64,000 bases of DNA, taken from positions 5,929,338 to 5,993,337 of the forward strand of contig OZ004581.1 in the NCBI GenBank assembly GCA_963924555.1, in the 5' to 3' direction. Shown here in pieces: positions 13,572-63,294 of the stretch. Position numbers and translations under genes: made by a program. The notes beneath the pieces are model-generated. The model made no database searches. It worked only from the letters and a program-made list of their open reading frames with translations, and was not told the DNA's origin. This DNA comes from Crambe crambe. Its lineage: Eukaryota; Porifera; Demospongiae; Poecilosclerida; Crambeidae. The stretch's first letter is position 1. Every line of letters starts with the position of its first letter.

Positions 13572-13615
13572 TCAGCTTGAATGCTTTATTTCCTTCAATA
13601 TATCCTCCACATTAC
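13572..13615 (-). CDS. Terminal exon of caspase gene
   Basis: A 44-nt exon after the acceptor TTTGAAG. It completes a glycine codon from the previous exon and encodes NVEDILKEIKHSS followed by TGA. The donor at 13676-13671 (GTAAGT) and this acceptor are only about 60 bases apart, a typical compact intron. Phase matches exactly. No domain; it is the C-terminal tail. Confidence 0.6.
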
Positions 13616-13676
13616 CTTCAAAAGAAAAAAAGTTCAGCATCATTATATTATACCCACCATACTAACATATACTTAC

Positions 13677-14483
13677 CATCAGTGTCTGGATGCAAGTTAA
13701 TATGCTGGTCAAGCAATGATATCCTTACTGGTTGAACCACCTCATTTTCATTTCTTTTGAATAGATTTATACTTGCTTGCATAAGAAGAAGTTCAAAGGA
13801 ATACAAAAATTTGGAATCTAGATCCATCAGTTTAACAATTTCTTGGCACAAATAACCCCCATTTTCGTTTCCGTATGCGAAGTACCCCTCATTTGTAGCA
13901 TGGAAGTCGAGATAATTGCCTCCTTTTGCAACTGTTACCATTTTTGGCACTACTGGTGCCATTTGTGTGAGAATATTGCCTCCTTTTGCAACTGTTGGTA
14001 CTACTGGTGCCGTTTGTTTTAGTCCAACCTTTGATTCCATTGGTACTATAATATACTCCTGCTCACCATTATAATCTTCACATCTACGACAACTTTCAAA
14101 AAGGAAGACCTTTGGAATATCTGTAAATATAAGACCATCCTCAACTTCCTCAGGGAATAAAGGTCGGATTACATCTTTATCCTTGTAAACCTTTACGTTA
14201 TCTTCTCTCATGCACAAGATATCACCATCCTGATCTCGTTTTCCATGACAAGAAAATATGAAGATTAAGCAACGATATGTCTCGAATGATTTTTTTTTAA
14301 GCTTCTTCATATTCTCTATATATCTTTCCAAATCTCTTTTACTAGCTCCGTGCGTCCAGTAGACATCAAAATTCAAATCCATGAAAGCCTTTTTGAATCT
14401 TTTACCATCGACATGTGCACCAGGGGCACGATTTGTCAGGATGATAACAGCACCAATTTTTTTTGTAGACTTCACCACGTTAT
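13677..14483 (-). CDS. Caspase (C14) domain exon, catalytic residues present
   Basis: A single 807-nt exon. It encodes GAVIILTNRAPGAHVDGKRF (p20 start), FDVYWTHGAS, CLIFIFSCHGK with the catalytic His, and IPKVFLFESCRR with the catalytic Cys in the position of the usual QACRG. A p10 part follows with YLDFHATNEGYFAYGNENGG, equivalent to the caspase substrate loop. Cysteine proteases of this family cut after Asp and drive apoptosis or inflammatory signalling. Between p20 and p10 a segment with VAKGGN is tandemly duplicated. The exon starts after an ATAG acceptor in phase 1 and ends in phase 1. ESCRR instead of QACRG is unusual, so activity needs proof. CARD-like and pseudo-caspase exons lie upstream on the same strand. 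Confidence 0.85.
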
Positions 14484-14599
14484 CTATAAAATTAATACAT
14501 GCAATTACTGTACATGAATATACCACACACACTCAGAAAGTGTGGTACCATTGGTAGCACTTCCTATAGCTTTTTAGCTATGAGCACAAAAAATTTCAA

Positions 14600-15175
14600 A
14601 AAGTGAAGTAGGGATAGCCATAAAATTTAGTTGCATTATTACTCCTAGCCCTCCTAATTTCAATAGCTAAATCCTACTTCACTCCCCCTTCAGCAACAAG
14701 TGAGTCTAGTAACCTCTTACCCGTGCCAATCACCAAACTCAAGAACCACAGCAAACTACCATTCCTACTTCACTCCTAGCCCTCCTAATTTCAATAGCTA
14801 ACCACACCTAGATCCTACTTCACTCTCCCTTCAGCAACAAGTGAGTCTAGTAACCTCTTACCCGTACCAATCACCAAACTCAAGAACCACAGCAATATTA
14901 CAAAACTACCATTCCTACTTCACTCCTAGGCCTCCTAATTTCAATAACCACACCATTTAGGAGGCCTAGGAGTGGAATAGTTTTGTAATATTGCTGTGGT
15001 TCTTGAGTTTGGTGATGGGTACGGTAAGGGGTTACTTGACTCACTTGTTGCTGAAGGGGGAGTGAAGTAGGATCTAGGTGTGGTTAGCTATTGAAATTAG
15101 GAGGGCTAGGAGTAATAGGAATAGTAATAATGCAGCTAAATTTATGGCTATACCTACTTCACTTTTTATTTAGAA
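14600..15175. mobile_element. Large foldback MITE with nested tandem unit
   Basis: Arms begin GAAGTAGGGATAGCC and end in a mirrored GCTATACCTACTTC. The left half contains a unit of about 140 bases twice (TCCTACTTCACTCCC, then CAGCAACAAGTGAGTC, then TACCCGT), and the mirrored arm has it once. It belongs to the same broad family as 11987-12236. Noncoding. Confidence 0.65.
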
Positions 15176-15232
15176 GAAATTTTTTGCACTCACTTGTTGC
15201 TAACAAAATGATAGCTGAAATTCATGGTATTA

Positions 15233-15305
15233 AAATGGGAGCATTTTATACTGAAATCAAAGTTCACAGGTTGGAGGCGCACACACTGGCATGGTGAAGT
15301 GAGCA
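15233..15305 (+). repeat. Dispersed 70-bp segment (copy 1)
   Basis: GGAGCATTTTATACTGAAAT followed by AGTTCACAGGTTGG and ACACACTGGCATG recurs at about 18080-18150. Probably a transposon fragment. Confidence 0.55.
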
Positions 15306-15576
15306 GACTACATACCATAGATAGTTAGCTATTAGTTAGCTATCTATTCCGGTTAAATGATTAAACTGAAGAGCTAACTTAGCTAGTGAAAATGGGAGCC
15401 TGATATCAAAGTTCACACTCGAAAGATTAGCTAGTGTTCCGAGTGCTGCCGACGTGAAATTGAACTGTAGTCCAAACTAATAGCAAAAGATCAGCCTCTA
15501 GGTGCTCTGACGGATGGCCCAAACAGAATTTTGATAACTATAGCCAATAAGTCAGGGCGTTGAACTTACTCATTAC

Positions 15577-19288: not shown

Positions 19289-19309
19289 CAGGTTTGTCAT
19301 CCATACCAC
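19289..19309 (-). CDS. 21-nt micro-exon
   Basis: Flanked by acceptor TTATTTTTCAG and donor GTAAGTAT, both strong. Twenty-one bases in phase 1 to phase 1, encoding GMDDKP. Lies between the CARD-like exon and the caspase exon and fits both phases. Confidence 0.5.
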
Positions 19310-19448: not shown

Positions 19449-19661
19449 GGTAATTCTCTTTCACTGCTTTAGCTAGTGTAGGATGATCTGACTCCAGGGT
19501 TTTGAAAAATACAGTGAAGGTTCCATTTTTGACTTTTTCCTCTATTAGTTTTAAAATGTCATCTTTTTTACCCAGTTCTCTGGTAGCTCTTTTAAATTCA
19601 TCGTCTTTAAGGAGCTGAAAGGAGGCAGCTACCTTGATAGGATCATTCATTTTGGATGTAT
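19449..19661 (-). CDS. CARD-like helical domain exon
   Basis: A 213-nt exon between acceptor CCACTATAG and donor GTGAGT, phase 1 to phase 1. It encodes about 71 residues, including FQLLKDDEFKRATRELGKKD, DILKLIEEKVKNGTFTVFFK and TLESDHPTLAKAVKENY. The second half follows the end of a CARD (D-x3-KLI, then G-x3-FF-x2-L, then HP-x-LA). The first half is shorter than usual. CARDs recruit caspases to activating platforms by homotypic contact, and this exon sits immediately upstream of the active-type caspase exon. It could instead be another Death-fold or an unrelated helical bundle. Confidence 0.5.
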
Positions 19662-24137: not shown

Positions 24138-25263
24138 GACAACCATATCTCTCGAACCACTCAAGCTACAGCCATGATTTCTGGACAAATCCACTCCGAA
24201 TTCTACCAACTACGATCTTTTCTACTCGTTGATCCTCGAAAGAGTCGATGAAAAAGGAGACACTATGGAGCACAGCACTCGACTAATTCAATTAGGAAGC
24301 CAATACGCATGCGCATGTATTTGAATATCCAATTATTCGAAATCATAATATTACTCAGCTGTCTCTAGCTAGCTAGCTAGCTAGCTCTAGCTGATGATAG
24401 ACTACTGTATCGATTCGGGGATTTAGATTCACCACGGTAGACTCTATTTCAGCATCTTCGACCTCCAAGTATGGCTCAACAACACAACACCTTGACTCGA
24501 TAAATGATTGGGCTGGTATGCTATTGGAGAACTTCTTTCATCTGTCCCTGCATACACATAGAAGAATGAACTCTAATCATATCTAAAACCATAAAAGAGA
24601 GGAAAAAAGACCAGGAACAAGTAAGGGAAAAAGCATTTCGTGAAATGAAAAAAAGATGTAGGGATGACCACTGCTCAAAAAAGTAAGGAAACAAGAAGGA
24701 TGGAAGTGGGATCAATCTTTGTTCTGTATATCCAGCCAACAATCCCTACATATACATCAGGTAACTTCAGATTATAGTGTAGTAATGTGTGTATATGTAG
24801 GGATTGTTGGCTGGATATACAGAACAAAGATTGATCCCATTTCCATCCTTCTTGTTTCCTTACTTTTTTGAGCAGTGGTCATCCCTACATCTTTTTTTCA
24901 TTTCACGAAATGCTTTTTCCCTTACTTGTAATAATAGAGAAGAAGAAGAATCCAGCGATTTACCTGCTTGCCGTATTTCTGAAACAGTAAGCTCCCTGGT
25001 CCTGAAACTTGGTCTGCACATTGTAGTAGGCTCTAGTAGGCTGGATAATCATTCACAGTAGCTTTTGTTAGGTGTAAGTGGGGGAACTAGAATTTCACTT
25101 TTGTATTAGTCTATAGGCGGCGCGCGCGGCCGTCCGAGTCATCCCTACACTCAAGCTACAGGTATGATTTCTGGATAATTACCTTTTGTACCGTTGTTGC
25201 TACCGCACTCTCTGATAGAGAAGAAGAAGAAGAATCCAGCGATTTACCTGCTTGCCGTATTTG
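23036..25263. mobile_element. Nested foldback cluster
   Basis: At least two members of the GTAGGGATG family in opposite orientation. Bases about 23040-23300 and 24640-24905 are self-hairpins, and about 23300-23860 is the reverse complement of about 24160-24640. A GC-rich motif CGGCCGCGCGCGCCGCC (near 23896) has its mirror near 25117. A TTA microsatellite lies at about 24098-24135. The right edge runs directly into the truncated Copia element at 25264. Confidence 0.6.
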
Positions 25264-25269
25264 TGTTGG

Positions 25270-25764
25270 CCATGAATCCTAGTCTACTGTACTTGATTGG
25301 AGCAGACCCAAAGGATCCAGTAGTGGTCTGGAAGGCCTTAGCAAATCAGTTTCAAAGGAATACATGGGCTAATAAGCTGGAGCTGAAGCAGAAGCTGTTC
25401 TCTCTAAGGTTGACTGATGGCAGATCAGTGCAAGAACACATCAAGACAATGACCGAGATTTTTGACGAACTTTCGGCAATAGATGAGCCTGTTAAAGAGG
25501 AAGACCGTGTAGTATATCTCCTTGCCAGCTTGCCAGAGTGCAACAATGTGCTAGTAACTGCCCTTGAAGCTAGCACTGAAGTCCCAGCTCTTGCAGTAGT
25601 TACTAAACGTCTCTTACATGAAGAGAGTAAGCTGAAGAATCGTTCACCTGAGTTAGGCCAAGAAGGAGCATTGATCACAAGACTTAAGAGAGCAAGATGT
25701 CACTTCTGCCACAAACCACGGCATTTCAAAAGGGATTGCGAAGATTATGCAAAGATCAAGGATT
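25270..25764 (+). pseudogene. Copia gag (UBN2-type) with zinc knuckle
   Basis: Lacks the gag N-terminus. Reads VVWKALANQFQRNTWANKLE, SVQEHIKTMTEIFDELSAID and a CCHC knuckle, CHFCHKPRHFKRDC, near 25702, then a stop. The family packages the element RNA. The upstream residues come from the foldback element in the same frame by chance. Confidence 0.75.
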
Positions 25765-25799
25765 AAACCAAAGCCAAGAAGAAAACCAAAACTGGAGCC

Positions 25800-26855
25800 T
25801 TCAAGGTGACAATCTCAGCTGAAGATGAAAATAGTTCTGACAACGAAAGTACAGGTTTGGTAGTTCAACATGCCTTGTCATCTGATTTCCATGATCAATG
25901 GATAGTAGATTCTGGGGCCACTTGTCACATGTGCAACAGTGAGAGTCAGTTCGTTAATCTTCAAACTCTGAGCAAACCGTTGACAGTAACTCTCAGTGAT
26001 GGACACAGTCTTCAAGCAGCAGGGCGAGGTAACATGATTTTGAGAATGAGACTATCACACAACAAAATCCAAGAGTGTACCCTCTATGATGTGCTATTTG
26101 TGCCTGATCTAGCATATAATTTGCTCAGCGTGACCTCTGCTGCCAAGAAAGATAAGGTGACTACATTTACTGAGTCAAAGTGTGAAATCAAGGATGCCAA
26201 GTCAAGGCTTGTTGCTAGTGGAAGGAAGTCTTTACTACCTGGACTATGATGGAGCAATGCAACAAATCCACTCGATTTGTGATCATGAAAGTTTGAAAAG
26301 TATCATTTGGCATCGTCGATTTGGCCACTTGAGTGTACGAAATCTGCAGTTACTAGCAAAAGAAAACATGGTGAATGGTTTATCTCTTGATGGCTTACAA
26401 GATTTTGACTTTTGCGAATAATGTACAGAAGGGAAGAGTCATCGACTACCATTCCAACCTAGGACGTCAAAACTAGCAGAGCAGCCTCTAGAGCTAATAC
26501 ATAGCGATGTGTGTGGAAAGATCGGAACCAAATCACTTGGTGGCGGTGAATACTTTGTCACTTTTATTGATGATCACACTCATCATGTGTGGGTGTATAT
26601 CTTAGAACGGAAAGATGAAGTTTTTCAACAATTTCGTGAATGGAAGGTTCAAGTCGAGAAGTCAACAGGTAGGAATATCAAAATTCTTCGTACCGATAAT
26701 GGAGGTGAGTATACCTCGACTGAGTTTACCTCCTATCTAACCAGTGAGGGTATCAGGCATGAGGTAACCATACCTCATACACCACAACAAAATGGTGTCT
26801 CTGAGAGACTGAATCGTACATTAGTTGAGTGTGTATGCACCATGTTAGCCGTTAC
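25800..26855 (+). pseudogene. Copia protease and integrase, first part
   Basis: Protease with WIVDSGATCH (active-site DSG) near 25900. The GAG-pre-integrase zinc motif follows after a frameshift (HRRFGHLSVRNLQLL), and an in-frame stop lies at 26419-26421. The integrase core carries HSDVCGKIG, LRTDNGGEYTS and PQQNGVSERLNRT, so all three acidic catalytic residues are present. The reading is cut at 26855 by the gypsy insertion. Confidence 0.75.
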
Positions 26856-26879
26856 TGTAAAAGTATGAAATACTAATGT

Positions 26880-27538
26880 CTCCAGGCACATGTTTATCAT
26901 GACCACATCTTGTACATTTTGATGTTCTAGCACGGGCTCCACCACCTCGACCACTTCAACCTTTGTTGACCTCATCAATAGTGATTGGGTCTTTCTTGCT
27001 GCCTTCTTGTAGAAAGGCCTGTTGTTCTGTTACCGCTTCCTTCTGTCTTATGGCTTTCTTGGCTTTTTCTAGAGTTAGAGTGGCATCCATTTGTAGTTTT
27101 TTAGAGAGTGCCACATCTCTAATGCCTACCACTAATTGGTCTCGCAACATTTCTTGTTTAAGGGTTCCATACTCGCAATTCTCAATTAGTTCATAGAGTG
27201 TTGTAATGTATTGCTCAGAAGATTCACCCTCTCTCTGATCTCTGCGGTTGAATTTGGCCCTCTCATATATAGTATTTTTCCTAACTTGGAAATAATCATC
27301 AAATTTCTCCATGACTGTATCATACACTTTCCGTCCCTCTGCTGTGATGTTTGTAGAGCTGAGGACAGCATCAGCTTCCTCTCCCATACAGTATAGCAAT
27401 GTACTGACTTGTCTGAGGTTGTCTTGGCTGGCTAAATTGGAGGCTGTTCAAATCGCCTCTTCCATTTCGCCCAGTTGTCAGGATTTTTGAAGTCGAAGGG
27501 TTCTGGAGCAGGTAAGCGAAGTTCAGCCATCTATCCCA
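26880..27538 (-). pseudogene. Gypsy gag fragment
   Basis: Minus strand, starting MAELRLPAPEPFDF near 27530. After a frameshift it reads LLYCMGEEADAVLSSTNI, YDTVMEKFDDYFQVRKNTIY and LRDQLVVGIRDVALSKKLQ, ending in a partial CCHC knuckle (CTRCGHDKH). Typical of the widespread metazoan gypsy gag related to K02A2.6-like elements. Confidence 0.7.
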
Positions 27539-27550
27539 CTTCTGACACCA

Positions 27551-27709
27551 TGTAAAAGTATGAAATACTAATGGCCAAATCAGTTAACTCTCATATATGA
27601 GCAGCTGCTCAATCACGAGACTAACATACAAAATGACATAACTATAGGATGATACAATGTCATGTATAATAACTAATGGAAATACACAACTAAACATAAT
27701 ACTGTCACA
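27551..27709 (-). repeat. LTR of the inserted gypsy element (159 bp)
   Basis: TG...CA ends on the minus strand. Bounded by the target duplication outside and the primer site inside. Confidence 0.75.
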
Positions 27710-27714
27710 GTTAC

Positions 27715-29214: not shown

Positions 29215-29454
29215 TGTTGGTGAACATGCACTCTCGGCAAAACACTTGTCAAACCACTATGCAACCACAATCACGCACCTGTAAATTCATGCACTGTTTC
29301 TAGAAATATCATCTTTTCTTTAGTTCAGTTTTGTATTGCTCTTGATTTATCATTCTTGAAAATTAACACTTCTCTCAGTGACACATCTGTAATGTAAAAT
29401 ACATTGTATATAAGAATTATTACCTGTTTTTTTCTACTTGGTATGTGGTCGACA
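29215..29454 (+). repeat. 3' LTR of the Copia element
   Basis: Starts TGTTGG after a purine-rich AGTGAGAAGGAG and ends TCGACA. A fragment of the same LTR lies inverted at 61498-61583. Confidence 0.65.
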
Positions 29455-30057: not shown

Positions 30058-30747
30058 CTTCTAAGTTAATGTGGCAGTTAAGTAATGATATCATTTCTGT
30101 TTCCATTAACGATGTTTCAAGATCCTTAGAGTCTGACTTCAAAGCAATACTTGCTTGCACAAGGAGAGCTTCAAAGGAATACAATAAGGATGGATCTTTC
30201 AGAAGGTCATTAACTTTGCTGAGCAATCTGATTTTTCTGCTTCTATTTATCACATGGAAAATGAGATAATTGCCTCCTTTTGGAACCTTCATTACTGATG
30301 GTACATGTAGTACTGGTGGTTTTCTTTCTTGTGATGGATCCCTTGGTTCACCAGTGATCATGCATTCATGAGTTTCAAACAGGAAGACCCTCGGAATGTG
30401 TCCAAGAATATTAGGTGCTTCTGGGAATAAAGGTTTGATTATATCCTTGTCTTTGCAAACTTCTTCCCCCTTCATCATCAGGACATCACGTTTATCTCCT
30501 TTTCCAGTATAAGAAAATATGAAAATTAGGCAACGATACTTCTTAAGATTTTCCCGTTTAAGATCCTTTACATCCTTTATGCATTGATTCCAAACTTCTT
30601 TACTAGCTCCATGTTTGCAATAAACATCAAATTTCAATTCATTAAATGACTTTTCAAACTCTTCATAATCAGTGACTGCATCAGAAGCATCAGTCAAGAT
30701 GAACACAGCACCATTGTTGTTCGACTCCTTCTTCAATTTAATAAAAT
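30058..30747 (-). CDS. Caspase-fold exon lacking both catalytic residues (pseudo-caspase)
   Basis: Same layout and splice phase as the exon at 13677-14483. Shared blocks: GAVFILTDASD, FDVYCKHGASK, YRCLIFIFS, CKDKDIIKPLFPE, IPRVFLFE and GGNYLIFH. The catalytic His of SCHG is replaced (SYTG), and the catalytic Cys of ESCRR is replaced (ETHEC, where His occupies the Cys position). The p10 substrate loop (GYFAYGN-type) is absent. The frame is fully open over 690 nt, so it is maintained rather than decaying. By analogy with c-FLIP and other pseudo-caspases it may act as scaffold, activator or brake of the active caspase. Begins after CTGTTATAG and ends at GTAAGG. Confidence 0.8.
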
Positions 30748-36015: not shown

Positions 36016-36889
36016 TTATATTGTTACATATTTCCCTCTTCTCACAGCTGTTATCATTGTTCCTTTCTTTCTCACTAAACGAAATGGGGAAGAATCGAAT
36101 TTAGTTGAGAGTTTGTTTTGTTTCCTTTGATGCAAATCGCCAATTTCAATGTTAGAAACTTTTGCTTTTGAACTCTTGTCAGCATTTTCTTTCATCTTGA
36201 GCCTCACCTTTTCATCATTCTGCTGCACTTTGAGTCGGATCTGAGATTGGTTGATCATCGATGAAATTGAGGAAGCTTTGTTTGAATTTTTCTACCAAAG
36301 AGCAATTCTGCTGGAGCATATCCTGTGGTCATGTGTGGGGTTGCTCTGTAATTATAAATTGATATAAGTATCGTTTCCAGCACTTTCTTTCTACATTAGC
36401 AGAACGGATAGCTTTTATGAGGGGTTTCATAAAGTTTCGGCTTCCAAATTAGCCTGTGGCCAAAGTGGAGTGATTTTCTGATGGTTGATTCCATTTTCTT
36501 GCATATATGTTTTGATCTCTGCACTGGACCATTGTCGCTTCTTATGACCTTTGGTATTCCATGTATGGAGAAAATTTTTTCCAGCTTTGGGATGATTGCT
36601 CTGGCTGATGTTAAATGATTTCTACCTCAGGAAAGCGAAAATATGCATCTATGATTATGAAGAGGTATTCTCCTGTTGGGAATGGGCCACAAAAATCCAC
36701 ATGGACTGTGTGCCATGGCTCTGGTGGTAGACAAGACATCTGCAATGGATCTGGGCAATTTTCTGGTCCGTTAGCTTGGCATGCGACACATTTTTCAATT
36801 GCTTGTTTCATACTCTCATCAATTCCTACTTTTTCTCGAATTAGTTTCTTTGATGCGACTATCACGAAGAATAATGTTAGTTTCGTCAT
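36016..36889 (-). pseudogene. Gypsy integrase relic
   Basis: Reads KCVACQANGPENC (zinc-binding CxxC), WHTVHVDFCGPFPTGEYLF with the first catalytic Asp, then a deleted or shifted middle, and the C-terminal part KLSTKFDSSPFRLVRKKGTM. Matches the K02A2.6-like gypsy clade. Confidence 0.65.
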
Positions 36890-37049
36890 TTACTTAACTC
36901 ATCCTTGGCACCGCATGAGATGCGAGGAAGTGAATATATTCTTCAGCTGCTAGTTCTTGACTTTTGTCAGCACTTGTTTTGGCATATCTGGATAAGAAAT
37001 CAGATGGGTTTGAATTTCCTTTGGCTTCATAATCATATTTCAAATTCCA

Positions 37050-37607
37050 TCATTCTATCCTTGCTGGTGGTCTTAACTTAGGATTGCCAAAGATGAGTCG
37101 TTTGCAATCGGTAGAGAGAGTGAAATGGCCCCCATATAGATGGAGCCTTTGAACTGCCCAAACAATGGCAAGTGCCTCTTTTTCAGTTTGTGAGTAGCGT
37201 TTTTCAACATCAGAAAGTGCTCTAATGATGTACGCAACTATTCTTCTGTCATTCTGTCCTGGACTTTTCTGGATTAGAATAGCTGATAATCCCCATGGTG
37301 GATAGTTCAGTGCTCTTGTTCGGATCAAAGTAGACCATGACTGCATCACTGATTAATAGCTTCTTGATTTTTTGAAAGATTGTTCTTGTTCTGCCCACTG
37401 AAACTGAGTATCACTCTTTGTCAGATCACGTAATGGCCGTGATATGTTGCTAAAATTGGGGATAAACTTTGAACAATAGGTCGCCATCCCTAGAAAACTT
37501 CTCACACCGCTCACTGATTTTGGTGTGCTTGCTGACTTGATGGCTTCTACTTTCTTTGGATCAGGTGATATTCCATTGCTTGAAAACACGAACCCAAAAA
37601 ATGTCAC
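37050..37607 (-). pseudogene. Gypsy RT connection and RNase H relic
   Basis: Two open pieces: FFGFVFSSNGISPDPKKVEA, then VRSFLGMATYCSKFIPNFS, and after a break PPWGLSAILIQKSPGQ, YSQTEKEALAIVWAVQRLHL. RNase H acidic motif partly present. Reading resumes opposite in the neighbouring inverted block. Confidence 0.65.
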
Positions 37608-38036
37608 TGAGGCTTTGTTGAATTCACACTTCGATTGGTTTAAGGGTAACCATGGATTACTTAGCTACAAAACAGTTGCTGACCTTGGTATTATTGATCT
37701 ACAAGTTGACCTACAAGTTAACAAGGTGGAACAAAAACGACATAACCATGAACTATTAATACAACAATGCCCAGGGTTATTCAAAGGTATGAAAAATGTA
37801 AATATCAAGCTCCACATTGACAAACAGGTAAATCCTGTTGCTCAAGATGCTCGTCATATTCCATTTCACTTTTAAAAAAAGTAGAGAAGGAACTCGAACA
37901 CTTAGAATAACAAGGTATCATAGAAAAAGTTGAAGACCCAACTCCATGGGTTTCTCCAGTAATGATCATTCCGAAGAAGAATGATGAAGTGTGACTCTGT
38001 GTCAATATGAACAAGGCCATAAAGCGAGAATGTCAC
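37608..38036 (+). pseudogene. Inverted block with gypsy reverse-transcriptase N-terminus
   Basis: Plus strand reads QCPGLFKGMKNVNIKLHID and VNPVAQDARHIPFHF, then after a stop GIIEKVEDPTPWVSPVMIIP and NMNKAIKRECHPTPAI. It belongs between gag and RNase H but runs in the opposite direction to both. Its right edge lies on a perfect 32-base palindrome at 38036-38067. Confidence 0.6.
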
Positions 38037-40020: not shown

Positions 40021-40328
40021 TTTCAAAACTCTGAAAAAAGGGGGTCCCCTGCCCCCACTGGAAGCAGTTGTTTTTTCCTGCATGTATGCAGGCAGAAAGA
40101 TCTTGCTGTAGCTACCAATGATCAGATTTTGCTAGCTAGATCATGCAAGTATCTTTTGGCTTTATGTTCAGCAGAAGGTCATAGATTTTTTGTAATGTTA
40201 TGGAGTGTACAAAGAAAGGGAAGAAGAGGTAATTTAAGGTAATCAAAATCCATATATAAATAAAGTTGGAGAGTATTATAATACAATACAGAGACTTAGC
40301 TATAACTTAAGTACTCAATTAATCTTAC

Positions 40329-40353
40329 CTTTGTTGCTTGTAACACCACCAAG
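40329..40353 (-). CDS. 25-nt micro-exon
   Basis: Acceptor AACATTATAG and donor GTAAGATT. Encodes LGGVTSNK plus one base, turning phase 0 into phase 1, exactly what the pseudo-caspase exon at 30747 requires. The reading ends in an intron, not a stop, so the ROCO gene must continue downstream. Confidence 0.5.
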
Positions 40354-40418: not shown

Positions 40419-40653
40419 CTTAGAGCGTACATCAGTAGTCTGCTTGCATTTGATACATGTGACAACATCTTTTATTTCTTCTCGTCCATAGCACACATAA
40501 GGAAGAATACACTGTGAGCAATTCTCAACTGGGCACTTTACTTCAAAGGGCCCTCCATAGTACTTCAGTCCTTCAAGACTGCTATCCGTACATATTGAAG
40601 AAAGATTGTTATGGATATCCTTAATGTGCTCAAGTTTATCTTCACAGGAAGAC
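40419..40653 (-). CDS. Cys-rich exon after COR
   Basis: Acceptor TTGTTGCACAG (phase 2). Reads SCEDKLEHIKDIHNNLSSIC, GGPFEVKCPVENCSQCILPY, VCYGREEIKDVVTCIKCKQT. The CPVENCSQC and CIKC pairs suggest a small zinc-binding fold. The donor is either GTAAAG after 40419 or GTAATA 21 bases further on; both keep phase 0. Follows COR directly, so it is the C-terminal part of a ROCO module. No named family recognised. Confidence 0.65.
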
Positions 40654-40725: not shown

Positions 40726-41368
40726 AAAACACCAACTTTGAGTCCGTGAGAATCTCTCTCATATTCCACTTTCCAGTGGTAATCTTTGACGTCATTGAGA
40801 ACACACACAGTGCTGGTGAAAATATCCTCAGGTGAGGAAGTTTTAGAATCACCAAGTAGCAAGCAGACCAGCTGGTAGTAAATTTGGGCAGGAAGAAACT
40901 TCTCAAAATCAAAGTACATATAGAACCAGGGACGATTTTCCAACTGGTCTTTTAACTCTTCTTTCCTTTCCTCTGTTAGCTCTGGAAGCATGCAAGGGAT
41001 GAGATACTCGACTTTGTCATCATCAGGATTCTTTTTAATCAGATAGATAAGGCAATAAGCTCGAAATATCAGGCAGAGCTGTTCAAAACTTATATCTGCA
41101 TTATCAGTGAAATTTTTCCAGCACTTTTGAAGAACATTGCTATCAGCTCTACCTTCTTCCAGAGCATCCTTCTCCGAAGGCTTTAGCTTTTTAGCCACAT
41201 CAGCTGTGCTCTGCTTTCCGTCCTCACCTTCCTTGTTTGATGTTTTACTCTTGAACCCCAAAATGACAGTCATCACATTGAACAGCCACTGTCGACGGAG
41301 AATCACTAGGTTCTTCAATTCATCACACTCATGATCATATAAAAATAGTCGTGGCAAGTTTTCTGGAA
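40726..41368 (-). CDS. COR domain exon of ROCO protein
   Basis: Phase 1 start after acceptor TTATTTTAG, matching the ROC exon end. Opens PENLPRLFLYDHECDELKNL and VILRRQWLFNVMTVILG, the typical COR start (VIL-x2-QWL-x2-VM). A charged Lys/Glu insert (KPSEKDALEEGRAD) follows, then EYLIPCMLPELTEERKEELK and FYMYFDFEKFLPAQIYYQLV with the aromatic second COR half. COR couples the ROC GTPase cycle to dimerisation. The intron before it is about 6.2 kb and holds transposons. Frame open throughout. Confidence 0.8.
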
Positions 41369-47613: not shown

Positions 47614-48975
47614 CTAGCCAGAGAATCTTGCCAGAAACATGGAGGAAATTGAATGCTTCATCCTGCTCCTTTTTATCCTTAAGGCCACACCTTTTAGCCT
47701 CGTCTCTCAACTTGCTCAGATCCACAATAGGTGGGAAGAACTCGATGCAACTTTCCAAATAGAGATACTGTAAAGGTCGATCCTCTTTCAGGAAAGGAAG
47801 CTCTTTTAAGGTTTCCTTGAGTTGATTTCGTAAATCCTCTATTCCACTTTTTTCGAGGTAATCACTGCCAGATTTTTTATCAATGGAATTCTCCACAGGA
47901 AAAAAATGATACTTCCCTTGCCTGTGAATATGATCCTTATATCTCGGATCTTTATCATTTCTAAAAAGTTTATTAATTTTATCAAGTTTATCTTCATTAT
48001 AATCTTTTTTGTGTGTGCCAACAAGAAAGATTTTTTCCTGAGTCTCTTTTACTTTTACCTTAGAATCTTTTGATTCTCCCGAGAGGCCTATATGAGCATG
48101 GATTGAGTGAAGCCAATAACGAAGCTCTTCAAATGGATCAGGACTATTTTCATTTTTTTCACGGTATTCCACCATTTCTGTACTGCGGACTTTCATCATT
48201 TTCTCTTTGTCGACGTGGTATTTCACCATTTCTTCAATATCAAAGACCACAAGGTACAGTGCTTCTCTTGAGATGAAGCAATGGTGCATTGGTCGATACA
48301 TATTCTGTCCTGCAAAATCCAGAGCATTCAGTACCAGAGAAGGATCCTGTGTGTTTAATTTCCTTAAGGAAAGATCAAGCTTTGATTGTTGTTTGCGACG
48401 AAGACCACGAGTTGGTGATCCAGATCGAGGATGTTGTGCTGGACCAGCATTAGTAGATTCACTGCTGATTTGTGTTGAACTTGTAATAGGTGAAGCTGGG
48501 GTAGGTGTACTGTGTGCTTCTAGGGAATCATTGGAATGGGAGAGATTCAAGGGCTGTTTGGACTTGGATGCAATTTCTGAAATCTTCTTTTTCAGCTCCT
48601 CACGAGGAACCTTTTCTATCGCTTCATCAATGAATAACTCCTTCTTTAGTAAATTTCCAAGTATCTGTAAGAAAGAGCTATATGAAGCATTCTTCTCCTG
48701 CCACTCCTCCTGCCGTTCCTTCTCCTCAATATTCAACTGTCTTTCATCAACTACTTCTTCCAATATGTTATTATCAATTCCTCGAGTGGATTTCAGTTCC
48801 GGATCAAATTTTTCTCCTGCCATCTGGCGGTAGAGACTCGTTTTTCCTGTTCTCTCCTGCCCGAGAATCAGCAATGTATAGTAAGGGATCTTGCATTTGC
48901 CATTTTTCAGGGCTCTTTTATAAATCGCTACAGCATCAGGACCCCTCTTCTCAATTTCATTAGGAATAATGAAAT
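47614..48975 (-). CDS. ROC GTPase domain exon of ROCO protein
   Basis: One exon of 1362 nt, phase 1 to phase 1. Opens EIEKRGPDAVAIYKRALKNG and YTLLILGQERTGKTSLYR (G1 P-loop). G3 is LDFAGQNMYRPMHHCFISRE and G4 is FLVGTHKKD, as in Roc domains of LRRK and other ROCO proteins. Between G1 and G3 lies a long insertion of about 120 residues, rich in Ser, Thr and Pro and in charged residues. After G4 it runs through YLESCIEFFPPIVDLSKLRD and FLHVSGKILWL into the COR exon. ROC binds GTP/GDP and switches the downstream module. Upstream on the same strand, ankyrin exons have compatible phases. Confidence 0.88.
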
Positions 48976-50312: not shown

Positions 50313-50543
50313 ACAAGCATCCTGTGTGGAGCTGAACAAACAAGCATCCTGTGTGGAGCTGAGCAAACTTGAGAAGCATCCTGTGTGGAGCTGAGCGAAG
50401 AAGCATCCTGTGTGGAGCTGAACAAAGAAGCATCCTGTGTGGAGCTGAGGAAACAAGCATCCTGTGTGGAGCTGAAGATACAAGAATCCTGTGTGGAGCT
50501 AATGAAAGACGTATCCTGTGTGGAGCCAGACAAAAATAGCCTG
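50313..50543 (+). repeat. 27-bp tandem repeat in gypsy leader
   Basis: Eight units of CATCCTGTGTGGAGCTGA plus nine variable bases, then a degenerate half unit. The frame is open through it (SCVELNKEA-type units) and joins the gag frame, although the likelier gag start is the ATG at 50616. The relative at 19982 carries a looser array of the same CCTGTGTGG core. Confidence 0.8.
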
Positions 50544-50615
50544 TGTGGCAGCCTGAACTTGGTTTCTAAGACCAAGAATCAACTCAGAAGAAGCAGAAAG
50601 CTGGTTAGAAGAGAG

Positions 50616-52799
50616 ATGAGCAAACAAGCAGAGACTGTTTCCAAGAGGGATGGACTACGATCCAGCAGGCATGCAAGGGAGGAATCTGTTCCAGGGCACA
50701 GAGAGGAGTCAGATGAAGAACCAACTGCGCATGGACTTGATCCAACAGCTGGAGAATTCCGACCATCCCTTGGGGATGAAAGGTACTTAACTACTATAAT
50801 GGGAGCTGTAGAATCAGTCCTAAAAGCTGACCTGGACACTAGGCTAAGAGAAAGCACAACAGCATTCACTGAAGCCTTAGACGCTATGGAAGAGAGAAAT
50901 GCCTCTGTAATAAAAGCAACAGAAAATAGTGCTAAAGAGAGGGACTCAGTTTTGAGTGAATTGCTTAAACAGCTAGTACTCAGCAACATGAATGCAACAG
51001 AACAGGCTAGTAGAGCTGAGAGAGACCGACTAGACTTTGAAAGAAGACAGAGAGCTGAGCATAGAGAGAGGTATGAGGAAGAGAAAGAGGAGAGAAGTAA
51101 GAGAGAAGCTTTGAAGGCTATACCTGCACCACCGCCTATGTCTAAGGATCAAGATATAGCTGACTATTTAGAGCTTTTTGAGACCAATATGGAGTGCAGG
51201 CAGATTCCTAAAGCTGCTAGAGTCAGTCACCTAATCCCACTTTTGAATAGCAAGTCACTTGTAGCTATTTCTGGTTTGCCTCCTGAAGCTAAGCTTGACA
51301 TGGCTGTGCTGAAAAAGACTTTGCTTGCTACAGCTAACACATCTACTAGATATGCTTCTAAAGCCTACTGGGACTTCACTAAGAAGTCTGGAGATTCATT
51401 CCTAGCAATGGGAACCCAGATGATGAAGTTAGCTAGACGGTTTGCCACAGCAGGTACTGCAGATGAAGTTATGGAAAAGTTCACTATAGAAAACATGTTA
51501 CAGAAAATGCCTGCTGAGATGCAACAATATTGCAGAGAGAAAGAGCCTGTTAGTATAGAAAACCTAGCTAACATGGCTGGAAAGTACTGCGCTTTGAAAG
51601 GCTTGGACGAGCTAAAAATGGATGCCAACAAACCCTGGACCTTAAAGCCTCGAGAAGAGAAGGTAGAAGAGAAGAAGCATAATTGGCATGGCAAAAGAAA
51701 ACCCTTTAAACAATGGGATACAAGGCAGACACATGACTCATCAACACCTCAAACTGATGATCAAAAGCATATAGCTAGTCAGCAGCCCAAAGAAGGTGTT
51801 AAAGAAGACGATAAGCCATTTGTAGGGTCTAAGTCTAACTCTTTTTTGGCAAGTTATTTTTGTGGAGACTATGGTCACTTTTCAAGGAATTGCCCCAAGA
51901 GGAAACAGGTGAATGTGGCACATGTACCTAGCTTATGTAAGGTCAAAGATAGTGCACTAACAATCCCTGGGAGGATAGGCCACACCCAAGTACCTGACAT
52001 GCTATGTGACTCTGGTGCAACAATTTCAGTTATCGCAAGCCATTTAGTCCCACCTGAAACTAAAATGCAAGAGGAAGTTTGGATTGAGACCCTAGACGGC
52101 CCAGCAAAACCTTATCCAACAGCATTGGTTGAGACTGAGGTCAATAACAAAACCATTGAGTTGTTTGCTGCTGTACTTCCAGCTGAAGCCACACCCTACC
52201 CAGTGATTTTAGGGAGGTATATCCCTGGGATGACTGTCACTTGGAGCATGACTGTTGGCAATGATAAAGAGACCATTTTCCAGCTGGAGCAAGACACCTG
52301 TTCTGGTGAAACAGCACCATTGGCTAAGAAATCCACCAGAAGGAAGAAGTTCAAGCAGATGCTGGATACAGCAGTACCAAAGGAGGATGCAGTGGCGGGA
52401 GAACCCACCAGCCAAGTGGTGGAGGAGAGAGCTGACACTGTTCCCCTCAGCAGTTCTAGTGCAACCGCACCACGGGCCAAGAAATCCACCAGAAAGAAAA
52501 AGTTCAAGCAGATCCTGGACCCATTCGTGCTACCAGAGGAGGATGCAGTGGCGAGAGAACACACCAGCCAAGTGGTGGAGAAGAGAGCTGAAACTGTTCC
52601 TCTCAGCAGTTCCAGTGAAACAGTGGCCAAGAAATCTACCAGAAAGAAAAAGTTCAAGAAGAATGGGCTACCTGAGGAGGAAGCAGTAACATCCACAACT
52701 GTTCCAGCAGCAGACCAGTTAACACCTCTGCAGATAGCTGAGCCTGCACCTTGTGCAGATGGACCAAATATGGAGATATCATGGAAGTTTTCCCTGTGA
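50616..52799 (+). CDS. Gag-protease of the gypsy element
   Basis: Start chosen at MSKQAETV by comparison with the gag start at 20550; the frame is open further upstream through the leader repeats. Contains an acidic helical region (YLELFETNMECRQIPKAARV), capsid-like EKFTIENMLQKMPAEMQQYC, and a zinc knuckle in which the first Cys is Ser (SYFCGDYGHFSRNC). The retropepsin reads MLCDSGATISVIAS (active-site DSG). The C-terminus has three repeats of KKSTRKKKFK-type basic blocks separated by PLSSSS. Structural and maturation proteins; cytoplasmic particles are expected for the family. Confidence 0.8.
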   Translation: MSKQAETVSKRDGLRSSRHAREESVPGHREESDEEPTAHGLDPTAGEFRPSLGDERYLTTIMGAVESVLKADLDTRLRESTTAFTEALDAMEERNASVIKATENSAKERDSVLSELLKQLVLSNMNATEQASRAERDRLDFERRQRAEHRERYEEEKEERSKREALKAIPAPPPMSKDQDIADYLELFETNMECRQIPKAARVSHLIPLLNSKSLVAISGLPPEAKLDMAVLKKTLLATANTSTRYASKAYWDFTKKSGDSFLAMGTQMMKLARRFATAGTADEVMEKFTIENMLQKMPAEMQQYCREKEPVSIENLANMAGKYCALKGLDELKMDANKPWTLKPREEKVEEKKHNWHGKRKPFKQWDTRQTHDSSTPQTDDQKHIASQQPKEGVKEDDKPFVGSKSNSFLASYFCGDYGHFSRNCPKRKQVNVAHVPSLCKVKDSALTIPGRIGHTQVPDMLCDSGATISVIASHLVPPETKMQEEVWIETLDGPAKPYPTALVETEVNNKTIELFAAVLPAEATPYPVILGRYIPGMTVTWSMTVGNDKETIFQLEQDTCSGETAPLAKKSTRRKKFKQMLDTAVPKEDAVAGEPTSQVVEERADTVPLSSSSATAPRAKKSTRKKKFKQILDPFVLPEEDAVAREHTSQVVEKRAETVPLSSSSETVAKKSTRKKKFKKNGLPEEEAVTSTTVPAADQLTPLQIAEPAPCADGPNMEISWKFSL

Positions 52800-54290
52800 T
52801 TACCAGAGCACAGAGTAAGAAGAAACTGAAGGAAATTGAGGCTCACGAGTTGGCAACAGCTCAGTCCCAGGTGGTACTCACACCACCTCAGCAGGAGCCT
52901 GTAGCAGAGCAAGGAAGCGATTTTGAAGTCTCGAATGTTTGTGAAGATGCTGGGACAGATGGACTTAATTCATCTGCCGAGCCGGGTGATTGTGAAGCGG
53001 AGACCAGACAGGAGCCGCAGAGAAACACTGTGATCACCAAGCAACAACTGCTGCAAGAACAGCAGCAGGATGATGAGACAGTCAAATTCATCAGAGAATC
53101 AGCAGACGAAGACTCACCATTCATGGTGATAGGAGATATCTTGTACTGGAAGAAAGGAGACAAGGCAGATCCGCAAGAAGATCAGGCACTCATTGTTGTG
53201 CCAAAGAAGCTCAAGAACCAAGTCCTGCAAGCCGGTCATGACTTCACTGGCCATTTTGGCAGTAAGAAATCGAAGACACTCATCAAAGCTCACTTTTGGT
53301 GGCCAGGCATGGGAAGAGACATTGTGCAGTATTGCAAAGCATGTAAAATATGCCAAAGATTCAACAACAAGAAGACTAGGAAGGAGCCCCTATGCCCCCT
53401 GCCTGTTATTGACACACCATGGTCGCGAATAGCCATCGATATTGTTGGCAAATCTGAGAGAACAAAGAAAGGGAATGCTTATATTCTTACAATTATGGAC
53501 TTTGCAACCAGGTATATGGAAGCAATTCCACTACCAAGAATAGATGCTGCAACAACATGCAACGCATTGTTAGAAGTCTTTTGCCAGGTTTGGCATACCT
53601 GAAGAAATCCTGTCGGACAACGGCAGTAACTTCGTGGCACAGCTGTCTGAACAATTTCTGAAGATGTTCAAGGTACACCATATCAAAACCTCTCCATTCC
53701 ACCCTCAAACGAACGGAATGCTTGAGAGAAGCCATCAAACTATGAAGAAGACACTTGACAAGCTTGGAAGCTCAACAAAGAATTGGGACGAATTCCTAGC
53801 ACCAACTTTGATGGCTCTGAGGACAGCACCTCATGCTGCCCTTGGCATGTCGCCATTTCAGTTACTCTTTGGCAGAGAAGCTAGAACCCCAGTCTCTGAA
53901 CTCAGAGAAGAAATCGAGCACGGCACCGAAGTCCCAAAGAATATCTTGGACTATCTGGAAGACCTGTACGACAAGATGGACAAAGCTCAAGCGTTGGTCC
54001 ATGAAAGAGACACAAAAGCCAAACAGGATTCAAAGAAGATCTATGACAGAGGCACCCAGCAAGAGCCACTAGAACCAGGAGACCAAGTCATGGTATTGGT
54101 GCCTAAAGGAATTGACAGCCTCACCTGCCAGTGGGAGGGGCCTTGTAAAGTCTTGAAGAAACTCAGTGACACTACGTACCTGGTAGACACTCCTCACAGA
54201 AGTGGCAAGAAAAAGTCAAAGTATCACAGAAACTTGATGAAGAAATACTTTCTACAAGTGATGTCTGCAGCAGCAGATGAGCAAGGAGAA
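52751..54290 (+). pseudogene. Integrase of the gypsy element (frameshifted)
   Basis: Overlaps the gag-protease end by 49 nt in another frame. H2C2 zinc domain: HDFTGHFGSKKSKTLIKAHF, CKACKICQRF. Core: IAIDIVGKSERTKKGNAYIL with the first catalytic Asp. After a one-base shift near 53585 come ILSDNGSNFVAQLSEQF with the second and QTNGMLERSHQTMKK with the Glu. A GPY/F-like end (DSLTCQWEGPCKVLKKLSDT) follows. All catalytic acids are present. Catalyses strand transfer into host DNA in this family. Confidence 0.75.
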
Positions 54291-54329
54291 GCAGAAGTTA
54301 CCCTGGAGAAAGAAGATCCCGACTTGGAG

Positions 54330-55262
54330 AAAGAAGTCAACATGGCATCTCATCTTGGAAAAGATCAGAAGAAAGATTTACTGCAAGTTCTACAGCAGTT
54401 CAGAGAAGTTTTCCAGAAGACACCTGGAGAGGCCAGAGTAAAGCCATTTTCAATCAACACAGGAGATTCAAAACCGGTTTCTCAGTATCCAAGAAGATTA
54501 CCAGCAAAATGGAAGCAAAGGATTCAGGAAGAAATAAAGACACTTGAAGCAACAGGAATCATTACACCATCTACCAGTCCTTGGACATCACCAATTGTAC
54601 CAGTTCCCAAGCCTAACGGTGACGTCAGGATGTGTGTAGATTACAGGGGAATAAACAAAGTGACCCAAGAAGACATCTACCCTTTACCCAGAGTGGATCA
54701 CCTGCTGGAAGAAGTCAGCCAAGCCAAGTATATAACTACTTTAGACTTACTTAAGGGGTACTACCAATTTCCGGAAGATAGAAAGAAGACAGCCTTCATA
54801 ACTCCGACAGGGAAGTGGGAGTTTAATAGAATGCCATTTGGGCTTAAAGGTGCCCCGGCAACGTTTCAAAGAGAAATGGATAGTCTTTTCCAAGACCAAG
54901 AGAATCTATCTGCATATATCGATGATGTTGCCATCTATAGCAATACCTGGGAGCAACACATCAAAGACATCACCAGAGCCTTAACCTTGCTGAAACAGAA
55001 AGGCCTCACTGCAAAGATATCGAAATGCAAATTTGCTAGACAGGAAGTTGAGTTCCTGGGGCATGTGATAGGAGGAGGAAAGCTTAAAACCCAGCAAGCT
55101 AAAGTTGCAGCAATTGCAACTATGCCAACTCCCAAGACCAAGAAAGAGCTTCAGAGCTTCCTTGGGTCTACGGGATACTATCGAAAGTTCATTCCAAGAT
55201 ACTCAGAGAAGACAGCATGTCTTTCAGACCTGACAAGGAAAACAGAACCGGATAAGCTAGCC
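54330..55262 (+). CDS. Reverse transcriptase of the gypsy element
   Basis: Same open frame as the integrase C-terminus. Motifs in order: GIITPSTSPWTSPIVPVPKP, VRMCVDYRGINK, YITTLDLLKGYYQFP, FNRMPFGLKGAPATFQREMD and the catalytic AYIDDV, then EFLGHVIGG and the FLGSTGYYRKFIPRYSE connection. Typical gypsy enzyme, copying element RNA into DNA. The frame shifts at about 55264, just before RNase H. Confidence 0.82.
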
Positions 55263-55263
55263 T

Positions 55264-55828
55264 GGACTCTGCTTTTGACAGCCTCAAGAAAGCATTGTGT
55301 GAAGCACCAGTTCTCACAGCACCAGACCATGGAAAGCCCTTTATTCTCAGCACTGATGCCAGTGGTGTGGGAGTGGGTGGAGTTTTGGAACAAGCTACAG
55401 ACGATGGAGAAGTCAAGCCAGTGGCTTTCTTTTCAAAGAAGCTCCTGGATCGAGAGAAGAAGTACGGCATCACCGAACTGGAAGCATTAGCCCTGTGCAA
55501 GTCAGTTAAACATTTTGCGGCCTATCTACTAGGAAACAAGACAACAGTATGGACTGACCACAAAGCCCTACAATTTATGGAGAAAATGAAAGGAGCAAGT
55601 CCCAGAGTGAACAGGTGGCTGCTTGAACTTCAACAGTATGATCTGGAGGTGAAGTACAAGAAGGGATCTGAAAACTGTGTCGCAGATGCCCTGAGCAGGA
55701 ACCCTTCAGACAGCACTTTCTCCACTGGACCAGTCCAGTCTTCTGAAAGGGGGGGGGGAGGTGTTAGGCAGGCCACTGCCCCAGCTGACCGACGCCCAGG
55801 CCACACAAGGACCACAGAGATTAATTAA
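55264..55828 (+). CDS. RNase H of the gypsy element
   Basis: FDSLKKALCEAPVLTAPDHG, then FILSTDASGVGVGGVLEQ (catalytic Asp), FFSKKLLDREKKYGITELEA (catalytic Glu) and VWTDHKALQFM (Asp). Ends YKKGSENCVADALSRNPSD, as in gypsy pol, and runs into the 3' LTR. No integrase follows, confirming the unusual order. Confidence 0.8.
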
Positions 55829-59822: not shown

Positions 59823-59859
59823 CTTCTTCAGGTTCGATAACTCCAGGTACTTGACCAGC
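59823..59859 (-). CDS. 37-nt exon between ankyrin and ROC
   Basis: Acceptor GTGTGCTATAG and donor GTAAGTATTG. In phase 0 it reads AGQVPGVIEPEE and ends in phase 1, linking the phase 0 ankyrin exon end to the phase 1 ROC exon start. No domain. Confidence 0.45.
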
Positions 59860-61497: not shown

Positions 61498-61583
61498 GAC
61501 CACTTACCAAGTAGAAAAAAACAGGTAATAAGAGTTTACTTCATATTTACAATGTATGATTTTTTACATTACAGATGTGTCAA
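61498..61583 (-). mobile_element. Copia LTR fragment
   Basis: Reverse complement of the end of the LTR at 29215-29454 (CTGTTTTTTTCTACTTGG; ACACATCTGTAATGTAAA). Isolated. Confidence 0.55.
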
Positions 61584-61639
61584 GCTGTCATGGCAATAAT
61601 TATTACAAATATCATTTTGCATTAATACGGATGATAGTT

Positions 61640-61990
61640 AAAGCTGACTAGATACTAACCTGAACCACATAATGCCTGTACACACTGCTTAACAGAGTCT
61701 CATCTCATGTCTGCAATCTAGGCTTGCCGCTACAGGAGAAAGCTAAAGAACTCTGCTTGCACGTGTTCTTAGATTGATCGTCAACATGGAGACAGTGATA
61801 CAATTACCGATGATAATAAAGCTGACTAGATACTCACCTGAACCACATAATGCCTGCTAATACACACTGCTTAGCAGAGTCTCATCTCTGTCTGCAATCA
61901 AGGCTTGCCGCTACAGGAGAAAGCTAAAGAACTCTGCTTGCATGTGTTCTTGAATTGTATGGGAAAGATCGTCAACATGGAGACAGTAGT
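61640..61990. repeat. Tandem duplication of about 170 bp
   Basis: CCTGAACCACATAATGCCTG, GCTTGCCGCTACAGGAGAA and GTCAACATGGAGACAGT each occur twice at a spacing of 170-190 bases. On the minus strand each copy looks like an exon (acceptor TCTCCTGTAG, donor CAG then GTGAGT or GTTAGT), but all three frames contain stops. Confidence 0.6.
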
Positions 61991-62265
61991 ACAATTTCTG
62001 ACCTGATGTGCAGTCCAAAACAAAGTGGAGTTAGGCACTCTAAGTTAATAGCATGAAGAAGGACGAAGTTGCTTTAGAGATTCATGATGGCAGCAAAGTG
62101 CTGAGGTACTCAGGGAAGAAATGCGCTTTGATTACATTACGTTTTGTTTTTTTTTTCTACTTGGAATGTAATTTTCGTTTCACTAAAATGTTTTCCCCCT
62201 CATTATTCTTAGCATCATTGAAGCAAAATGCTGAACTCACATTAATTTTTATCTATTATACTTAC

Positions 62266-62370
62266 TTTGTTTTTTATCGAATCCAATTTATCACCTCCCT
62301 TAGCAGCCCTTAATGTAGTGGCAACTAAAGTGCTAGATTTAGCAACAGCTATATGCAAAGCTGTGTTACC
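62266..62370 (-). CDS. Ankyrin-repeat exon
   Basis: Acceptor AATCCTACAG, donor GTAAGTATA, 105 nt in phase 0. Reads GNTALHIAVAKSSTLVATTL, the G-x-TALH-x-A hallmark of an ankyrin repeat, then RAAKGGDKLDSIKNK. It joins in frame to the upstream exon end (IDATDAM), giving a normal repeat junction. Ankyrin repeats bind protein partners and occur upstream of ROC in several ROCO proteins and in DAPK1. Confidence 0.7.
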
Positions 62371-62986
62371 CTGTAGGATTTAATGAAGGATAAAAAAGTT
62401 AATCATTGCCAACTGTTCAACAGTGTGTTTAACTGCACATTAATACATACCATAGCTACAACACAAGGTTCATAACCTCATGAAAACATATAAATATCAC
62501 ACAACACACACACACCTTAAGTTATGTTTAGTAAAGCTCAAGTCAAGCTACAACCAGTTAATTTACACTACATACATACCACAAACTTATACATTATGTG
62601 GCAGAAAAAAAGAAAAGCTGAATCAAATATGAGAATCCTCAGCTATCAGGTAAGTCTATGTAGTATAACACACAATAACAACTACTCAGAGCCCTTTTTG
62701 TAGCTGGCCATAGGTCGGGAGACTAATGGGACCGATACCTATGGTCAAACTGGGTTCTCCCCTGATGACCGGATAAGAAGCTCTCAAAGAAAATAAGTTC
62801 TCAAAGAAAAACTCAAATAACTCAGTAAAATCATCTCACAATCACACTATCTCAACATAAGTATAGTAATGGTCCTAAAGGTTAATTATTAAGTTAATTT
62901 GATTAAGCTCTTAATAGATGATCTCTACCTGTGATAAAGCAATGGACAAAGGTCTTGTTTTTCTCCTTTTATTTTTCTTATGATTC

Positions 62987-62989
<3 letters not shown>

Positions 62990-63066
<77 letters not shown>
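62990..63066. repeat. (CA)n microsatellite at a splice donor
   Basis: About 38 CA units. On the minus strand this is (GT)n starting directly at the 5' splice site of the ankyrin exon at 63067. Confidence 0.9.
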
Positions 63067-63067
<1 letters not shown>

Positions 63068-63294
63068 ATGGCATCCGTAGCATCAATGGGGCATCTTTTT
63101 TCAATTAGGAGTTCAGCCATTTCCTTCATGTCATATGCAGCTACCAAGTGAAGCCCAGTTTTGTTGCCATTCTCATCTGTAGAACTAGTAGAAGCTGTAA
63201 TATCCACTAATTCTACTCCCACATCCTCCAGCAGGTACTTAAGCATTTTCTCTTGAAGGTTTTCACAAGCCACCAGCAATGGGGTATAACCACT
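63067..63294 (-). CDS. Ankyrin-repeat exon
   Basis: Acceptor TTTCATGATTAG; 228 nt in phase 0. Reads SGYTPLLVACENLQEKMLKY, LLEDVGVELVD, then NKTGLHLVAAYDMKEMAELL and IEKRCPIDATDAM: one and a half ankyrin repeats with a short acidic insertion (STSSTDENG). First exon visible; the gene must begin beyond the window. The donor lies inside a GT microsatellite. Confidence 0.72.

Follow-up and report, generated by a model that had tools for sequence, protein, structure and literature searches.

We analyzed 64,000 nucleotides (nt) of the genome of the sponge Crambe crambe (C1:5929338-5993337, where C1 is contig OZ004581.1; hereafter the window), whose minus strand carries a gene that seems to encode an ankyrin-ROC-COR GTPase related to human DAPK1. 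In the order of transcription, ankyrin exons are followed by a ROC, a COR, a Cys-rich, a 25-nt, a pseudo-caspase, a CARD-like, a 21-nt, a caspase and a tail exon, and as coding exons the ones listed here exceed chance. Comparisons with paralogous loci in the genome (143 Mb in 119 contigs searched) point to a family in which the Death-domain ending seems to have been swapped, for a dead caspase in the window gene and for other enzymes in sister genes. A preliminary description had joined thirteen exons of the window into a single open chain of 4491 nt. Nine of them, from ROC to the tail, could be rebuilt, with all eight introns running from GT to AG, with agreeing phases and with 4040 nt that stay open to the final TGA. 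In addition, two ankyrin exons were recognized, leaving two of the thirteen without a rebuilt counterpart.

The Ankyrin-ROC-COR Core

The first ankyrin exon (62986..63294; minus strand, as are all exons of the chain) is an open frame that scores 34.6 bits for the Pfam family Ank_3 and has an 84% identical counterpart in a paralogue, C12; its 3' border, which enters a TG repeat, is uncertain. The second ankyrin exon (62266..62370) has the borders CTACAG/GGTAAC...ACAAA/GTAAG and is 74% identical in C12. A 71-nt stretch at 59874-59804, 90% identical to the same paralogue, may be one further exon of the earlier model. The gene probably extends beyond the right edge of the window, where an ankyrin-like frame was recognized by eye at C1:5996709-5996518.

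The exon that encodes ROC and the start of COR (47614..48975, spliced borders rebuilt) clears the Pfam cut-off for Roc (50.3 bits versus 27), has Roc-COR and LRRK2 chains among its PDB matches, and contains the sequences GQERTGKT and DFAGQ, which we take to be the G1 and G3 motifs. The ratio of nonsynonymous to synonymous substitutions (dN/dS) of ROC is 0.62 between the window and C12, and 0.40 between the window and a further paralogue, corC. COR-A is split between this exon and the COR exon proper (40726..41368); its two pieces score 16.9 and 23.9 bits, each below the cut-off of 35.3, and follow one another in the right order along the profile (positions 19-58, then 55-108). COR exons were found at 13 loci of the genome and the Cys-rich exon (40419..40653) at 11, each of the latter following closely downstream of a COR locus.

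A Linker Exon Shared by the Family

The 25-nt exon (40329..40353) converts phase 0 to phase 1, and the preliminary description had viewed it as tailored to the pseudo-caspase exon. The comparison with the paralogues does not support this notion. At 12 of the 13 COR loci (the window included, C1:3704342 left out) the stretch after the Cys-rich exon was examined, and all 12 possess a small linker exon with a length of 1 mod 3, AG/GT borders and the same change from phase 0 to phase 1. At all 12 loci again, the next recognized domain exon on the same strand is preceded by an AG and has an open phase-1 frame. This domain is Death-like in nine cases, PNP-like in C12, a subtilase in corB and the pseudo-caspase in the window. 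Given this pattern, the 25-nt exon represents the usual linker of the family to a Death-like exon, and not a caspase adapter. Since the domain exons after the linker are in phase 1 throughout, and the CARD-like and caspase exons likewise start in phase 1, the phase fit alone does not rise above chance.

The distance from the linker to the Death-like exon is 50-172 bp in C15a, C15b, C15c, C6a, C6b and C6c, and amounts to 1.5 kb in cor3545, 2.5 kb in corA and 9.0 kb in corC; the other endings lie 0.6 kb (phosphorylase-like, C12), 5.1 kb (subtilase, corB) and 9.6 kb (pseudo-caspase, window) past the linker. With the Pfam cut-off for Death at 22.6, the exon of C15a passes (28.1) and those of C15b (16.4) and cor3545 (18.6) fall below it. 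The remaining Death-like exons have no Death match in Pfam; those of C6a, C6b, C6c, corA and corC resemble each other and were labeled by eye, as was that of C15c.

A decayed Death-like remnant was recognized by eye in the window at 40150..40215 (minus strand, approximate borders) through comparison with C6a, C6b, corA and C12. It reads KIYDLLLNIKPKDTCMI* (the asterisk marks a stop); CCAT replaces CCAG at its acceptor, the frame stops, and the adjacent Death-like exons of corA and C12 are in the same state. The preliminary description had also held that the ROCO part runs on without a stop. This is correct if splicing takes place at the donor of the 25-nt exon; otherwise, the frame ends after four codons (GKIN*, at about 40317). 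In corA, cor3545, C12 and corB as well, reading through the linker leads to a stop after a few codons.

The decayed exon, the partial COR copies found elsewhere on the chromosome and the ankyrin exon that enters a TG repeat could be taken to mean that the window harbors a decaying ROCO copy with an accidental chain. We regard this as very unlikely, as the ROC, COR and Cys-rich frames are open, the G1 and G3 motifs are present and the dN/dS values of ROC are below 1.

The Pseudo-caspase Exon

The pseudo-caspase exon (30058..30747) is 46% identical to the active caspase exon over 222 codons (dN/dS 0.42) and scores 17.8 bits for Peptidase_C14, below the cut-off of 21.4. We take FSCHG and FESCRR of the active caspase to be the catalytic His and Cys motifs, and FSYTG and FETHE, found in the pseudo-caspase segment 30041-30796, to be their counterparts; T and H occupy the positions of the catalytic His and Cys, both of which are lost. 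No copy of this exon with more than 50% identity was found in the genome. When read through, its frame ends with GKDSM*; a splice to an acceptor located about 50 nt further on would end it with D*.

Because no ATG occurs in its frame upstream of residue 107, the pseudo-caspase exon requires an upstream partner that leaves phase 1. Searches of the minus strand from 40.3 to 30.8 kb for a Death-like exon found none with one model, with three queries (none below E 7) or with three more (E 0.01), and the linker is the nearest recognized candidate partner. A splice from the ROCO part to the pseudo-caspase is plausible as one of several endings of the family, because near relatives carry other effector exons in the same place, on the same strand and in the same phase.

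Different Putative Endings at Sister Loci

A midpoint-rooted tree built from 11 of the 13 COR exons groups the window with C12, corB and corA in a single clade (support 100/99) that is nested among Death-ending loci, and the four members of this clade have four different endings. The firmest case is C12, in which predicted ankyrin, ROC, COR, Cys-rich and linker exons precede the phosphorylase-like exon. This 304-codon frame, 0.6 kb past the linker, has no Pfam match itself and is 78% identical to an exon at C1:6001139-6002047 (L009:7802-8710, minus strand) that scores 35.2 bits for PNP_UDP_1 (cut-off 25.1); in NCBIfam, both give a nucleosidase match far below the cut-off. The PNP_UDP_1 exon lies on the same strand as the window's chain, about 8.5 kb upstream of its first ankyrin exon. 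The ending of corB is a Peptidase_S8 exon (91 bits), located 5.1 kb past the linker and with a stop of its own at the end. In their DNA order, strand and phase, the paralogues would thus share a core and differ in their C-terminal domains.

We located 75 effector exons in the genome: 44 Pfam caspases (pieces merged), one pseudo-caspase, 12 S8-like and 18 PNP-like exons. A COR exon (13 in total) lies within 12 kb of three of these 75, and in each case the effector exon is downstream on the same strand, while 0.04 would be expected from uniform placement. Within 60 kb of the COR exons there are seven places, of which four are downstream on the same strand, one is downstream on the opposite strand and two are upstream on the same strand.

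A number of observations weigh against a family with exchanged endings. The expectation of 0.04 was calculated post hoc, with a PNP list obtained by using the C12 exon as query, and it ignores the clustering of genes on C1; furthermore, effector exons in other placements show up at 30 and 60 kb. Death-like exons are common in this genome (150 matches in one search, many of them weak, and 71 in another), so that some neighboring exons may be there by chance. ROC exons were found in the fetched stretches of the window, C12 and corC only; none was found for corA or corB, for which 15 and 10 kb upstream were covered, respectively, and no upstream stretch was covered for the C15 loci, the C6 loci and cor3545. 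Moreover, the match between corA and the window around COR is confined to a single 97% block at 44292-38840. In view of this short match and the ROC exons not found for corA and corB, the loci corA, cor3545 and perhaps corB may represent incomplete copies that precede other genes. The loci corA and cor3545, about 97% identical in COR, precede Death-like exons, and the Cys-rich exon of corC contains in-frame stops. In the window itself, the 9.6-kb gap between linker and pseudo-caspase holds a degenerate Ty3-type pol (36016..37664, minus strand; translated frames, labeled by eye), the linker is followed by the GKIN* read-through stop, and the join of linker and pseudo-caspase is one predicted by gene models.

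These points bear on an explanation by two or three ordinary genes, according to which the ROCO gene, its Death-like exon having decayed, retains the intron and ends at or just after the linker with GKIN*, and the pseudo-caspase and CARD-caspase exons are its unrelated neighbors in a cluster of cell-death genes. We consider this possible, though rather doubtful. It fits the read-through stops near the linker in the window, corA, cor3545, C12 and corB, the decay of the window's Death-like exon, the richness of C1 in Death-like, caspase and subtilase exons, and the long gap with its retroelement. However, the donor GT of the linker is kept at all 12 loci, no starter exon for the pseudo-caspase was detected in the searches made, and C12 and corB are similarly arranged with other effectors.

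Two Death-like exons are also present on the minus strand at 5201-6214, the second of which is frame-broken in the window; a segment like this pair sits 13 kb downstream of the corB linker and carries another break there. We rejected the pair as a displaced ending of the ROCO gene, since its first exon belongs to a family of 71 matches that are mostly located away from the 13 COR loci.

The CARD-like and Active Caspase Exons

The distal part of the chain comprises a CARD-like (Death-fold-like) exon at 19449..19661 that was labeled by eye, a 21-nt exon at 19289..19309 known from the rebuilt spliced chain, the active-type caspase exon at 13677..14483 and a tail exon at 13572..13615 that ends with TGA. 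The active caspase scores 46.1 bits for Peptidase_C14, keeps its catalytic His and Cys motifs (segment 13648-14532) and continues into its own short tail across a 61-nt intron; no relatives in the PDB were found by sequence at E 0.01. For the CARD-like exon, no Pfam family scores above its cut-off. A structural model computed from the single sequence has five helices, compared with the six of a Death fold, at a predicted local distance difference test (pLDDT) value of 69, and its best fold match in the PDB has an E value of 8.9; with this low confidence and without a significant match, the model was discarded as evidence for the fold.

The CARD-like/caspase pair exists in two further copies, casA (C1:5813719-5820399) and casB (C1:5917884-5924821), whose CARD-like exons are 89% identical to that of the window and whose caspases are 96% or 90% identical. 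Neither copy has a pseudo-caspase match. Within 60 kb, they have a single COR exon for a neighbor, that of the window, at a distance of 45 kb from the second copy and on the opposite strand. Where the window has its pseudo-caspase, both copies have an S8 exon upstream and, farther up, a Death-like frame; these S8 exons are located at L017:5686-7026 (72 bits) and, with 99% identity to it, at C1:5801416-5802552. The DNA likeness of the first copy to the window extends, with breaks, from about position 10.8 kb of the window to position 29371 and stops 0.7 kb short of the pseudo-caspase; beyond the pseudo-caspase, 0.44 kb (32159-31724) again match the copies with 84% identity. The gap between the pseudo-caspase and the CARD-like exon measures 10.4 kb.

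An in-frame ATG is present in the CARD-like exon at 19650, 11 nt past the acceptor, and is kept in all three copies. A related caspase gene at C1:5125687 has an upstream Death-like frame whose ATG follows a possible acceptor at a short distance. As the Death-like exon of cor3545 also has a Met close to its acceptor, we reject the ATG as proof of a separate gene start and treat it as weak evidence. The earlier contention that the caspase part has no initiator of its own holds for the pseudo-caspase frame, whereas the CARD-like exon has this ATG.

From these sequence comparisons, the active caspase is probably a separate neighboring gene, and the join of the pseudo-caspase to the CARD-like and active caspase exons is poorly supported. 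One polypeptide reaching from ankyrin through the pseudo-caspase and the CARD-like exon to the active caspase appears unlikely to us. Its open chain and matching phases speak for it, as do the S8 exons upstream of the pair in both copies and the 84% match at 32159-31724, which make it conceivable that a protease-CARD-caspase module exchanged its first part. The arguments against it are that the CARD-caspase pair was copied with no match to the pseudo-caspase, that stops follow soon after the pseudo-caspase, that the CARD-like exon has an ATG and that the gap spans 10.4 kb; in addition, the modules are all in phase 1, so that their fit costs little. The proposal of a single transcript hence retains part of its footing for the join of ROCO and pseudo-caspase (no early ATG, no starter exon, effectors in the relatives) and is poorly supported for the active caspase, the pair having been duplicated with no pseudo-caspase match beside it. 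An effector-swapping animal ROCO family combined with a single chain in the window that runs through the pseudo-caspase and CARD-like exons to the active caspase is decidedly unlikely; if true, one chain would unite sensor, switch, platform and protease.

Three further features of this region deserve mention. Compared over 14483-13677 with C1:5819518 and C1:5923946, in an alignment that contains an indel, the window caspase shows nonsynonymous differences from casA at 14 of 632 sites and synonymous ones at 0 of 166, and from casB at 32.5 of 629 and 1.5 of 163 sites; such nearly exclusively amino-acid-changing differences might possibly reflect diversifying selection. Positions 1-765 and 10760-12300 of the window are both about 97% identical to overlapping parts of casA, have frames on opposite strands that are distantly like the Death-like exon of C15b, and look like an inverted repeat. 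The introns of the chain hold a Ty3-type (50373-55828) and a Ty1-type (25179-29201) retroelement, labeled by eye and both on the plus strand, opposite to the chain, and 200 N at positions 3922-4121 mark an assembly gap.

Discussion

The data reported here can best be accommodated by two neighboring genes on the minus strand, a ROCO gene with an exchangeable ending that carries the pseudo-caspase, and a separate CARD-caspase gene. We hold this reading tentatively and give it somewhat less than an even chance. In the first gene, the constant part would close with the Cys-rich exon and the small linker; as the linker leaves phase 1, any downstream phase-1 domain exon could be taken up. The Death-like domain would represent the ancestral ending that decayed in the window copy and was replaced by the pseudo-caspase exon. 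Ankyrin repeats may sense a partner, whereupon the ROC-COR switch would change its state, and the dead caspase might then provide true caspases with a docking or decoy platform, by analogy to the role that cFLIP plays toward caspase-8. A gene border would follow the pseudo-caspase. The second gene would consist of a short CARD-like part and the active caspase, would have its start in the CARD-like exon or shortly upstream of it, and may encode a client of pseudo-caspase platforms. At the sister loci, the output would be provided by Death-like, subtilase or phosphorylase-like domains.

Twelve loci with one type of linker are followed by four types of domains, Death-like, phosphorylase-like, subtilase and pseudo-caspase. 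If the joins are real, they would offer a testable case of a DAPK1-type Death domain exchanged for enzymes, and would place a caspase-derived domain under the control of ROC-COR in an animal.

DAPK1 carries ankyrin repeats, and the Crambe family shares with the DAPK1 group these repeats as well as ROC-COR and, in nine of 12 loci, a Death-like C-terminus. It differs in that the window copy has lost its Death-like exon to decay and in that most Death-like exons of the family escape Pfam. In PMC6337361, a Death domain is described as characteristic of DAPK1-type Roco proteins, which lack leucine-rich repeats (LRRs), and the word "caspase" does not appear in that text. ROCO genes of brown algae likewise undergo exon shuffling, but there, LRR exons are shuffled and not C-terminal effectors (PMC11378527). 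In the literature searched, which lacks most subscription papers, neither an animal DAPK1-like family with exchanged endings nor a combination of Roco, subtilase and ankyrin was found. Proteins of the sponge Amphimedon with Death and TRADD-N domains can bear caspase or PNPase C-termini (PMC8195603); caspase and PNPase are alternative C-terminal domains there as well, and the core differs from ROC-COR.

A further parallel comes from bacteria. The preliminary description knew of no ROCO protein with caspase domains, yet bacterial AP-GTPase (ROC)-COR conflict proteins with at least 24 different C-terminal domains, caspase included, have been published, and several copies per genome can carry different effectors (PMC8195603). 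A ROC-COR core with a caspase is thus already known from bacteria, and the animal case made here is one of gene models. Common to both systems would be a ROC-COR core whose C-terminal effectors can be exchanged and include a caspase (PMC8195603); the bacterial proteins have N-terminal LRRs, whereas ankyrin repeats are found here, and the exchange in Crambe would proceed via phase-1 exons. If the joins are real, an animal DAPK1-like GTPase would consequently combine one switch with interchangeable outputs, in the manner of the bacterial ROC-COR conflict proteins (PMC8195603).

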